The notes under the pieces are model-generated. The model did not search any database and was not told the DNA's origin. It saw only the letters and a list, made by a program, of their open reading frames with translations. Below, piece by piece: positions 34,463 through 39,037 of a stretch of 46,185 bases of DNA. Within the stretch, counting starts at the first letter, position 1, and the number at the start of each line of letters is the position of its first letter. The position numbers and the translations under genes are program-made. The DNA is from Bacteroidaceae bacterium (GTDB lineage Bacteria; Bacteroidota; Bacteroidia; Bacteroidales; Bacteroidaceae): the NCBI GenBank assembly GCA_017480685.1, contig JAFUSD010000027.1, positions 1 to 46,185 of the forward strand. The letters run 5' to 3'.

Positions 34463-35248
34463 CTATATTCCTTCACCATCCATAAATCCTATGTGATGGA
34501 TAGGTCGTGACTGACGCACATGCGAGTAGGCTGGCACATCATGTGTTATCCACAAGTTACCACCGATGACCGAGTCGTGACCTATGCGTATGCGCACCAG
34601 CAGCTATGTGTTGGAGTAAATTGTGACATGATCTTCCACGATGGGGTGGCGAGGCTCATCAATCATGCGCCCCGCCACATCGCGAGTAAAGTGTTTTGCA
34701 CCCAAAGTCACTCCCTGATACACCATGACCCCCGTACCGATGATGGCAGTTGCTCCTATAACGATGCCTGTCCCATGATCGATACCAAACGCAGCACCGA
34801 TTTCAGCAGCCGGATGTATGTCGATACCAGTAACCGAATGGGCACGTTCGGTAATGATGCGCGGCAGCAAAGGCACCCCAAGTTTATGCAGAGCGTGAGC
34901 TACACGGTAGTGCAACATAGCCGTGAAGGCTGGATAACAGCTTATGACCTCCAACGGTGATGTAACCGCAGGGTCGTTGGTTGCCACTGCATCTATGTCG
35001 GAACGTAACAGATTGCCAATAAGAGGCAGCTGACCGACCAACTGACTGGCCACAGCCTCGGCATCAGGCGACGTTCCTTCGGCTTTCTGCTCCTGAGTAG
35101 AGAAAGCGAAACAGATGTGATGCACAAGCAGGCCATAGAAGTCGCTGTCGCCGATGGCTCCAAACACCTCTGGAAAAAGCACGCTTGCCACCTCGTGCAT
35201 CATGAGGTCGATATCTGCACTGGTAGGTAATATGAACTTTGGTTGCAT
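34463..35248 (-). pseudogene. cysE: Serine O-acetyltransferase with an in-frame TAG
   Basis: The enzyme makes O-acetylserine from serine and acetyl-CoA, the substrate of CysK. The 214 codons before the stop contain the N-terminal helical domain and the left-handed beta-helix start (GIDIHPAAEIGAAFGIDHGTGIVIGA, YQGVTLGAKHF, RHPIVEDHVTIYSNT). TAG lies at 34604-34606. In the same frame the protein then continues with RIRIGHDSVIGGNLWITHD and ends FMDGEGI at the real stop 34463-34465, 261 codons in all. This tail is conserved family sequence, and a terminal Ile after Gly-Asp/Glu-Gly is what CysE inserts into the CysK active site. The four codons at the break (*, L, L, V) could be point changes or a pair of compensating indels. 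Either a very recent inactivation, readthrough, or sequence error. It follows cysK by 50 bp. Confidence 0.85.
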
Positions 35249-36265: not shown

Positions 36266-36305
36266 CGAAAAAGAAAACTCCGCCAATCGTGAGTGATTAG
36301 CGGAG
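36266..36305 (-). terminator. Attenuator terminator upstream of cysK
   Basis: Read on the minus strand, CTCCGCTAATC (36305-36295) and GATTGGCGGAG (36288-36278) form an 11-bp stem with one U-G wobble and a 6-nt loop, followed by TTTTCTTTTTC (36277-36267). It is about 50 nt upstream of the cysK ATG. Its first arm is also complementary over 9 bp to a segment inside the leader ORF, giving two mutually exclusive structures. Confidence 0.85.
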
Positions 36306-36353
36306 CTTAATTCTTATCGTTTGTTCTGTTTCGGATGTTTGAACCTTGACATA

Positions 36354-36467
36354 TCACAACGAGGCAGTGCCGCTAATCGGATGATTAACGCAACAACAAC
36401 ATGCTCCTTTCTCGATGAAAGCCACGATGTGTCCAATTGTCTGTATATGTCTTTGTTCTATCTTCAT
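36354..36467 (-). CDS. 37-residue poly-cysteine leader peptide of cysK
   Basis: The frame starts at ATG 36467 and ends at TGA 36356-36354. Residues 21-30 read GACCCCVNHP: four consecutive Cys codons (TGT TGT TGT TGC, 36401-36390). Cys is the end product of the downstream cysK-cysE operon. Directly after the Cys codons comes CCGATTAGCGGC (36380-36369), whose GATTAGCGG can pair perfectly with the first arm of the terminator. Stalling at Cys codons when Cys-tRNA is short would leave this segment free to form the antiterminator; fast translation would let the terminator fold. No conserved protein function is expected. I could not find a TAnnTTTG promoter between wzc and the leader. Confidence 0.8.
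   Translation of the reverse strand: MKIEQRHIQTIGHIVAFIEKGACCCCVNHPISGTASL
36369..36380 (-). promoter_or_regulatory. Antiterminator segment in the cysK leader
   Basis: CCGATTAGCGGC on the minus strand lies about 10 nt after the last Cys codon. GATTAGCGG is exactly complementary to CCGCTAATC of the terminator's first arm (within 36295-36305), giving 9 bp that exclude the terminator. Confidence 0.75.
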
Positions 36468-36474
36468 CAGTTTG

Positions 36475-36525
36475 TGATTATTCAACGGTTATGATTATTC
36501 AATGGTTGTGATTATTCAACGGTTG
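36475..36525. repeat. Three 17-bp direct repeats between wzc and the cysK leader
   Basis: TGATTATTCAACGGTTA, then the same with ATGGTTG and ACGGTTG endings, at 36475-36491, 36492-36508 and 36509-36525, period exactly 17 bp. They begin 8 bp upstream of the leader ATG (minus strand) and fill the space to the wzc stop. CAACCGTTG on the other strand is nearly palindromic, so they could be regulator sites. Confidence 0.8.
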
Positions 36526-36532
36526 TGGGTTA

Positions 36533-39037
36533 TCAGGCTTCGGCCGGCATCTCATCCTTTGAGTTGCTGCTCTTGTGGTGATGACGCTTGTGCTTCTTTT
36601 CGTTTTCACGACCGTAGCCGTATCCGTATCCATATCCGTAGCCATACTTGCGACCGTAGCCGTAGCCATAGCCATACTTGTAGGTGTTCTTGCGCTTCGA
36701 GAGGTCTACACCGTTGAGTGCTATGCAGAACTGGTCGAACTTCTTGTCTACCTTCAGTTTGTTTACAAACTCGATTGCGGCCTTTGGTGTCACGTCGGCA
36801 CGGCATACGTAGACACAGACGTCTGCCACACGGCTGATGATGTCGGAGTCGGTAACGATTGTGATAGGTGCCGAGTCGACAATCACGTAGTCGTATCGTT
36901 TACGCAGTTCTGCGATGGCTTGGTCGAGTGTTTCGCGTGCCACAAGTTCGGTTGGGTTTGGTGGCACAACTCCGCCTGGCAGTATGTCGAGGTTTGAATG
37001 TAAGTAAGAGTGCTGTATGAGGTCGTCGAGCGGATACTCTGTCGGGTTGGCAAGGTAGTTGGATATACCGACCATGCGTGTAGAGAGTTTGAACACTTTG
37101 TTCAGTCCTGGCTTGCGGATGTCGAGACCTACTATGATTGTCTTCTTTCCGAGGAAGGCAAGGCTGACGGCGAGGTTTCCTGCCATGAACGATTTACCCT
37201 CGGCTGGCTGTGTTGATGTGAATTGTATGACTTGCTGTCCGGGTTTGAGCATGAAGAGCAGGTTGGTACGTAGGTTTCGGAATGCCTCTTCCATGAGGTC
37301 GTTCTTGTTTTCGTGTACTACGATTGATCCTTGCTGTTTTGTCACATTGTTAGCATACGGAATCTCTGAGACGATTGGCACGTCGGTGAGTTTCTTTATG
37401 TCGTCGCTGTTTTCTATCTTGTACTTGAGTTGTTCGCGCAGCCAGATGATTGCGAACGGCAGTCCGAGGCCGAGTACGAGTGCAATGAGGTATATCATGC
37501 TTCGACGTGGCGACTTTGGAACTGATGATGCCATCGGTTCTTCGATTATACGTCCGTTGTTGGCTGTTGCGGCCAGGGTGATGAGGTTTTCTTCGCGTTT
37601 CTGTAGGAGCATCATGTAGAGTTCTGACTTGATGGTCTGCAGACGTCCGTAGGTGTTGAGTTCCTTCTCTTGTTCTGGCGAGCGTGCTATCATGCCCTGG
37701 TATGCTCCGGCCTGGCGTGAGAGGTCGTTTTGTGCTATGCGCAGTCCGCGTATGGTGCTTTCCACATTGGTCTTCACGGCTTCATGCATTGCTGCAATCT
37801 GTGAGTTGAGTTGTATGACTTGTGGGTGCTCGGGTGTGGATGTCTGGAGCAGTCGTTGGCGTTCGAGCACGAGTTCGTTATACTGGTTGATTGATGTAGT
37901 GAGGCTCTTGTCCTCGAGTCCTACGTTTACTGGTATCACGTCGTTGTTGTGTGATGGGTCGTTGACGTAGTTGCGCATGTATTCGGCCATGGCTACTTGT
38001 GTGGCCAGTGCTGTGCGTTGCTGGTCGTATGCGGTCTTTTGGTTGAGAGCCACTTGTGCATCGGTTGCCAGGTTTGTCACTCCGGTCTTGCGCTTGTAGC
38101 TTGCTATGTCGTCTTCGGTCTCGCCCAGTTCTTCGTTGATGGCCTTGATACGTTCGTCGATGAATTCGGCAGTACGTTTTGCTACTGCGTTCTTCTCGTC
38201 GTTAGCATCTTGGTTGTAGTCGTCGATGAGTCGGTTGATGAAGTCGATGCCTCGCATGGGGTGAGCATCTGCCACCGAGATCTGTGCTATGGTTGTGGTC
38301 TTCGATGTTGCCTGCACGCTGAGGTTGTTGGCGTAGTTTGATGCTACGATGTCGGGGGCTGTGATTCGTACACGGAGTTCGAGGTCGCGGTCGGGTTTCG
38401 GTACCGAGTCGTTGTATGCAAAGTTTATGGTACCCACTGGCAGTTTCATCGTTGCCGGCAGCGAGGTGAACTTCTGCTTCTTCTGCTCTTTTTCCTTACG
38501 TCCTACGTAGTATGTTGCGTCTACGTCGAATGTTCCGTCCTTTCTGTAGTCTATGTCGAGCACTATGGGTCCCCAGAGTTCGTCGGCAATGGATGTTGGG
38601 AAGTCGACGAGCAGGGGGGTTGAGTGGTAGAGTGGCACGTTTGAGCCGAGTGTGCGCTTGAGCGATGTCGATACGTGCAGGTTGAGGTCGGTCACCACTT
38701 TCTTTATGAGTGTGTGTGTACGGAGTATTTCAACCTCGTTGTCGAAGTTGCGCGATGTGGCTACGTAGCCTAAGTCGAGCATGTCGGTGAGGGCCGACAT
38801 CTGCTCGCTGCCCTTCTTGTCGTTGTCTTTTATGAGTACTGAGCCGGCTATTTCGTAGACTGGTGTCTTGAAGCGCAGGTAGACGAACGCTATGATGAGA
38901 CACACCACTACACTTACTATGAACCATGGCCAATAGAGTGAGAGTATATAGACTAATTTGCTTATGCTGAATCCCTCAGATTCTTCGGTTTGCTGATTTG
39001 TCTGTGCTGTTGTGTTTTGTGATGCTAATGCACTCAT
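36533..39037 (-). CDS. wzc: Wzc-like polysaccharide co-polymerase with BY-kinase domain
   Basis: The 834-residue inner-membrane protein has two membrane helices (about residues 35-55 and 525-545) flanking a large periplasmic Wzz-type domain with coiled coil (about 300-480), and a cytoplasmic bacterial tyrosine kinase: Walker A STQPAEGKSFMAGNLA, Walker A' VGLDIRKPG and Walker B YVIVDSAP. The C-terminus is a YG-repeat tail with more than ten Tyr (about residues 785-815), the autophosphorylation cluster, then a His/Lys stretch. It controls chain length and export of capsule or exopolysaccharide with Wza. Order HAD, wza, wzc on the minus strand suggests one operon. Confidence 0.93.
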   Translation of the reverse strand: MSALASQNTTAQTNQQTEESEGFSISKLVYILSLYWPWFIVSVVVCLIIAFVYLRFKTPVYEIAGSVLIKDNDKKGSEQMSALTDMLDLGYVATSRNFDNEVEILRTHTLIKKVVTDLNLHVSTSLKRTLGSNVPLYHSTPLLVDFPTSIADELWGPIVLDIDYRKDGTFDVDATYYVGRKEKEQKKQKFTSLPATMKLPVGTINFAYNDSVPKPDRDLELRVRITAPDIVASNYANNLSVQATSKTTTIAQISVADAHPMRGIDFINRLIDDYNQDANDEKNAVAKRTAEFIDERIKAINEELGETEDDIASYKRKTGVTNLATDAQVALNQKTAYDQQRTALATQVAMAEYMRNYVNDPSHNNDVIPVNVGLEDKSLTTSINQYNELVLERQRLLQTSTPEHPQVIQLNSQIAAMHEAVKTNVESTIRGLRIAQNDLSRQAGAYQGMIARSPEQEKELNTYGRLQTIKSELYMMLLQKREENLITLAATANNGRIIEEPMASSVPKSPRRSMIYLIALVLGLGLPFAIIWLREQLKYKIENSDDIKKLTDVPIVSEIPYANNVTKQQGSIVVHENKNDLMEEAFRNLRTNLLFMLKPGQQVIQFTSTQPAEGKSFMAGNLAVSLAFLGKKTIIVGLDIRKPGLNKVFKLSTRMVGISNYLANPTEYPLDDLIQHSYLHSNLDILPGGVVPPNPTELVARETLDQAIAELRKRYDYVIVDSAPITIVTDSDIISRVADVCVYVCRADVTPKAAIEFVNKLKVDKKFDQFCIALNGVDLSKRKNTYKYGYGYGYGRKYGYGYGYGYGYGRENEKKHKRHHHKSSNSKDEMPAEA

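Follow-up and report, generated by a model that had tools for sequence, protein, structure and literature searches.

A predicted cysteine-codon transcription attenuator ahead of cysK-cysE in Bacteroidales

We analyzed a 46,185-nt stretch of DNA from a Bacteroidaceae genome (the window; its genome is G000 below), whose minus strand carries, in order, a gene for a Wzc-like tyrosine autokinase, a short leader ORF, a terminator-like hairpin, the cysteine synthase gene cysK and the serine O-acetyltransferase gene cysE (Table 1). The leader ATG follows the end of the kinase gene by ~65 nt, and the T tract behind the hairpin ends ~54 nt before the start of cysK. The cysE frame meets an in-frame TAG (34604-34606, minus strand) after 214 aa and stays open beyond it to 34463; its homolog in G086, a genome of the same genus, is intact at 277 aa, and the TAG is either a sequencing error or a recent loss. 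A second serine-acetyltransferase-like ORF was seen elsewhere in the window's genome (G000:C258). Between the kinase gene and the leader (~36475-36530, minus strand), a 17-nt unit (AACCGTTGAATAATCAC-like) occurs three times in tandem and was not seen in G086.

Table 1. Genes and leader elements at the cysK-cysE locus (positions in the window)
Feature	Position	Strand	Basis or remark
Wzc-like tyrosine autokinase gene	36533-39037	-	Upstream neighbor of leader
Leader ORF, 37 aa plus stop (38 codons), MKIEQRHIQTIGHIVAFIEKGACCCCVNHPISGTASL	36354-36467	-	Translation
Four-Cys-codon run TGT TGT TGT TGC, proposed stall site	36390-36401	-	Read directly
Segment 1, GTTAATC, partner of segment 2 (1:2 hairpin)	36383-36389	-	Local fold
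Segment 2, GATTAGCGG, antiterminator strand	36370-36378	-	Perfect 9-nt complement of segment 3
Segment 3, CTCCGCTAATC, 5' arm of terminator, pairs with segment 2 in antiterminator	36295-36305	-	Fold, pairing
Segment 4, GATTGGCGGAG, terminator 3' arm	36278-36288	-	Hairpin fold
T-rich tract TTTTCTTTTT, proposed termination point	36268-36277	-	Read directly
cysK, cysteine synthase A, 304 aa	35299-36213	-	TIGR01139, above cut-off
cysE, serine O-acetyltransferase, read to in-frame TAG	34604-35248	-	TIGR01172, below cut-off, partial profile

A sequence-only reading of this region had proposed a cysteine attenuator composed of a poly-Cys leader and two mutually exclusive stems, and translation bears out its 38-codon ORF with four adjacent Cys codons. 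The hairpin that it placed before cysK, with a T-rich tract behind it, is also present: CTCCGCTAATC and GATTGGCGGAG form 11 bp including one G-U pair, flanking pairs extend the stem to 14 bp, and the folding energy predicted with these flanking pairs is -20.7 kcal/mol. The claimed complementarity to the first hairpin arm proved to be a perfect 9-nt match between segment 2 (GATTAGCGG), which sits inside the leader ORF, and CCGCTAATC within the terminator 5' arm; the gap between the last Cys codon and this segment is 11 nt rather than the 10 nt originally given. We additionally identified an element absent from that description, segment 1, which lies immediately 3' of the Cys codons and pairs with GATTAGC in the window as well as in G086 and in a further genome, G157. 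This pairing is a classical 1:2 hairpin and completes a four-segment attenuator of the trp/his type. The leader matched no Rfam, Pfam or NCBIfam family, and a search of the window and five related loci gave no riboswitch, T-box or leader covariance-model match above its curated Rfam cut-off.

Four features of a ribosome-mediated attenuator are found here: a short leader ORF in which codons for the pathway's end product stand side by side (CCCC before cysK-cysE), a predicted intrinsic terminator between the leader and the first gene, an antiterminator that shares an arm with this terminator, and control codons placed such that stalling there would keep the antiterminator strand uncovered. From this anatomy, the comparative evidence and established attenuation theory, we infer that cysteine controls cysK, and we assign a probability of about 0.87 to the reading that cysK-cysE is under ribosome-mediated transcription attenuation, with charged tRNA-Cys as the signal sensed. 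With ample cysteine, the ribosome on the leader would pass the four Cys codons and reach the stop codon, covering part of segment 2, so that segments 3 and 4 would form the terminator and transcription would end before cysK. With cysteinyl-tRNA in short supply, the ribosome would stall on the Cys run and cover segment 1, leaving segment 2 free to pair with segment 3 before segment 4 is made; no terminator would then form, and cysK-cysE would be transcribed. Without translation, the 1:2 hairpin would favor termination. Such a scheme implies that the leader is translated, that transcription can terminate at the hairpin, and that cysteine supply decides the outcome.

The geometry of the element is consistent with this reading. 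In every lineage that carries it, the antiterminator strand starts at nt 11-13 after the last Cys codon (at nt 12 in the window), leaving a gap of 10-12 nt, and because a ribosome protects ~10 nt beyond its A-site codon (the established toeprint distance), segment 2 would lie just free of a ribosome stalled on the Cys run. In constrained folding of four sequences, a ribosome on the last Cys codon of a transcript that extended only through segment 3 gave the 2:3 antiterminator, and a ribosome at the stop codon gave the terminator, which is the switch that the model requires. When the full leader was folded with the ribosome stalled, the terminator was the more stable structure in G000, G086 and G287 (a different genus of the same family) and the antiterminator in the metagenome-assembled genome (MAG) L119; since the terminator is favored in the former three despite the stall, their switch would have to be under kinetic control, which is also how known attenuators work. 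When G086 or G287 was folded as an untranslated transcript with segment 3 made, the predicted structure was the antiterminator and not the 1:2 hairpin.

We evaluated these pairings against dinucleotide-preserving shuffles, applied in the window to the 81 nt that separate the Cys run from the terminator (n = 2000), of which 3 contained a 9-nt Watson-Crick match. A 2:3 duplex of equal strength arose in 10 of 2000 shuffles for G000, 1 of 2000 for G287 and 60 of 2000 for L119, and combining the three lineages by Fisher's method gave p of about 1.1e-5. The 1:2 hairpin, evaluated by folding the local stretch, was matched in stability by 23, 5 and 1 of 1000 shuffles in G000, G086 and G157, respectively; it is weakly supported in L119 and not above chance in G287, where 634 of 1000 shuffles were as stable.

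As a control, both strands of the window and the collected loci were scanned across 18 amino-acid groups for short ORFs that contain a run of 3 or more copies of one residue and come with a terminator, together with an antiterminator (7 bp or longer) located 5-30 nt after the run. Cysteine gave 5 matches among 85 ORFs, all ahead of cysteine-synthesis genes, compared with 2 among 3,946 for the 17 other groups once alternative frames and the opposite strand of these loci had been removed (Fisher p of about 7.5e-8), in a scan whose thresholds were fixed after the first examples were known, whose G000 and G086 matches are close homologs, and whose loci, picked by cysK similarity, leader similarity or DNA pattern, are enriched for cysK neighborhoods. 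The leader-similarity locus, L003, is the G086 leader, which was also reached by cysK similarity as L033. A leucine leader in another frame overlapping the Cys run (ATG TTG TTG TTG CGT TAA, encoding MLLLR) was considered and rejected because its ATG is absent in G287 and because the genes make cysteine.

Conservation of the Cys run and of the alternative stems in relatives had been named beforehand as a test of the proposal, and the element withstood it: G086, G287 and L119/L120 keep both, and G157 keeps the Cys run and the antiterminator strand, which together with the constrained folds supports the attenuator interpretation. G086, whose CysK is 86% identical, keeps the leader, Cys run and terminator, its leader homolog being 86% identical over residues 1-35 (E 8.8e-19); the two genomes share, without a single difference, a 39-nt block that spans the Cys codons and segment 2, their spacers have diverged, and the terminator stem differs by a single G-U to A-U change. 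Both the Cys run and GATTAGCGG are retained in the sister species G086 and G157. In G157 the leader (MYILNIHNMAQCCCVNRMISGTCRYVNIRF) lies at a contig end, is shorter, and has an N-terminal peptide unrelated to that of G000, with the same GATTAGCGG placed 11 nt after the Cys run; the G157 cysK contig begins inside a terminator-like stem, such that the element is split over two contigs that are probably adjacent.

More distant cases carry the same arrangement in different sequence. G287 has a leader (MKAFMTSLHTTCCCTAPN), a terminator (GGACCTGCCAATCAATCTGGCAGGTCC) and a pairing strand before cysK-cysE, and the MAGs L119 and L120 (the latter labelled Paludibacteraceae) have a leader (MMTVSLFNICCCTTPLWGVA), a terminator (ACGGCTTACCCCATACGAGGTGAGTCGT) and an antiterminator pairing of TATGGGGT with ACCCCATA before cysK, with cysE absent from the stretch read. 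A run of 3-4 Cys is kept in G086, G157, G287, L119 and L120, an antiterminator that shares a terminator arm is present in G086, G287 and L119 as it is in G000, and in every leader-bearing case the next gene is a cysteine synthase. Across the three lineages the stem sequences are unrelated while both alternative pairings are kept in each. Outside the Cys run the leader peptides share almost nothing between lineages; that the peptides differ and the Cys run stays points to the codons rather than the peptide sequence.

On a CysK tree of 110 rows, the six leader-bearing Bacteroidales proteins fall into one 14-member clade (support 99/98) in which leader-less members are interspersed, and the leader label, with one Bacillota case included, requires four changes. 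The attenuator is rare: other species of the genus with a more distant cysK showed no such leader, and many of the leader-less cysK genes in the genus follow a gene resembling O-acetylhomoserine sulfhydrylase. This scattered distribution within the clade, together with the leader-less cysK genes of the genus, suggests repeated gain, loss or relocation of the attenuator. Searches for further examples returned few: a leader protein search of 151 family genomes gave G086 as the sole clear match besides the window (matches at E 0.005-1 were treated as chance); GACCCC and CCCT[AT]P pattern searches of 399 family genomes revealed no further leader in the 30 and 15 loci read, a set from which eight further GACCCC matches without a locus were left out; and an order-wide cysK sample of 393 genomes at a strict cut-off yielded 12 further loci, none with a leader.

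These comparisons also bear on other explanations of the same parts. One is that the hairpin does no more than terminate the upstream Wzc-like kinase/exopolysaccharide operon and that the Cys-rich ORF arose by chance and regulates nothing, as the closeness of the kinase gene to the leader would allow; in addition, the 250 nt preceding the leader showed no consensus promoter in G000 or G086, such that in these two genomes the attenuator may be transcribed from the exopolysaccharide operon upstream. Against a chance arrangement, the same parts occur outside a Wzc context in G157, G287 and L119/L120, each with a promoter-like site of its own, close to the Bacteroidales consensus, that precedes the leader ATG by 24-30 nt; no stretch of the leader is better conserved than the Cys run with segment 2; and the complementarity exceeds that of shuffles, with Cys an outlier among amino acids. 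We therefore regard an ordinary terminator as very improbable.

Just as improbable is a nascent-peptide or metal/redox sensor, in which the poly-Cys peptide would bind metal, become oxidized or arrest the ribosome instead of reporting tRNA-Cys charging. Cys clusters do bind metals and respond to oxidation, and copper-responsive upstream peptides containing Cys are known; unlike arrest peptides, the leaders here are nearly unrelated between lineages outside the Cys run, the gene that follows makes cysteine, and the Cys codons are spaced as a ribosome stalled with them in its A site would require. Least probable of all is an effect on translation rather than termination, as proposed for mycobacterial poly-Cys ORFs, whose leaders are reported as translation attenuation in the passages of PMC13236596 that cite them. 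Each leader described here is followed by an intrinsic-terminator hairpin with a U tract, the antiterminator strand pairs with the 5' arm of this hairpin, and the terminator ends well short of the cysK start, which leaves the start site outside the stem. Transcription attenuation that senses charged tRNA-Cys accounts best for these observations.

Ribosome-mediated attenuation itself is textbook knowledge from the trp, his and leu leaders (the Yanofsky model), which share with the window's element an end-product codon run, 1:2, 2:3 and 3:4 helices and an intrinsic terminator before biosynthetic genes; the window's element differs in its Cys codons, its cysK-cysE genes and its Bacteroidales host. 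Poly-Cys leader ORFs of mycobacteria were reportedly the subject of work by Canestrari et al. in 2020. In Actinobacteria, such ORFs were predicted with no obvious terminators (PMC1262725), and the mycobacterial ones are described, where PMC9031893 and PMC13236596 cite them, as cysteine-responsive, leaderless and apparently acting on translation. These leaders likewise consist of a short ORF with a Cys run before cysteine-synthesis genes, whereas the window adds a terminator-like hairpin and an antiterminator. The uORFC-8-2 motif, found before cysS in Rhodobacterales, likewise combines a Cys-codon uORF with a terminator downstream of it and is predicted to respond to tRNA-Cys charging (PMC8632094); in that alphaproteobacterial motif, unrelated in sequence, two tandem Cys codons lie inside stem 1 and the controlled gene encodes cysteinyl-tRNA synthetase, in contrast to the four Cys codons before segment 1 and the downstream cysK-cysE of the window.

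For Bacteroidota and Bacteroidales, leader-peptide attenuation surfaced only as general hints (PMC7366714, PMC9723704), and within a limited literature set we found no description of a cysteine attenuator of cysK in Bacteroidales. A complete Cys attenuator before cysteine-synthesis genes thus appears undescribed in this order and, attenuation as such being known, would be the first of its type there as far as checked. A complete cysteine-codon transcription attenuator would stand in a phylum with only such hints, and suggests that transcription-translation coupling serves amino-acid control in Bacteroidales. The occurrence of one geometry in three unrelated sequences offers a comparative system for the constraint that the ribosome footprint places on attenuators, and the simple design—a Cys run, about 11 nt, and an antiterminator—is directly testable by reporter.

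Whether this extends into a broader pattern is evenly balanced in our view: Cys-tRNA-sensing attenuators may be a recurrent, often gained, lost or moved form of control over cysteine-synthesis genes in gut and rumen bacteria, with at least three sequence-unrelated Bacteroidales forms in one cysK clade and a separate metY-cysK family in Bacillota and Eggerthellaceae, replacing a palindrome-based control suggested in Bacteroides and Parabacteroides. Among Lachnospiraceae and Eggerthellaceae MAGs, we observed Cys leaders of the form ..CCRML[NY]SRA.. before metY(-cysK) at L160 (938), L171 (469) and L181 (890), in which a CTCCCGG strand, beginning at nt 12 past the final Cys codon, is complementary to one arm of a terminator; pairing as good arose in 19, 0 and 6 of 2000 shuffles, respectively. 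Competition from another hairpin, formed with a GGCCGG-like strand farther downstream, is conceivable at these loci, so their logic may differ from that of the window. A Lachnospiraceae locus with a CLCC leader and terminator before cysK (L174) was not counted because its antiterminator was not above chance (1431 of 2000 shuffles as good). Upstream of metY in Clostridia (L157, L163, L165, L167 and L180), we also observed a second recurring leader peptide, NFR-x-GRM, followed in most cases by CC or C-x-C, together with the nucleotide motif CGAATG; this could be an arrest peptide or a Cys leader.

Finally, a palindrome, TACC-N8-GGTA, occurs upstream of cysK in Bacteroides/Parabacteroides-type genomes (L088, L089, L122, L125, L126, L127, L130, L141, L198, L201, L202 and L209), mostly 84-102 nt before the gene, and is absent from the leader-bearing loci. 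With 13 loci carrying it, 72 lacking it and 27 copies in 936 kb overall, this palindrome is a candidate protein operator.
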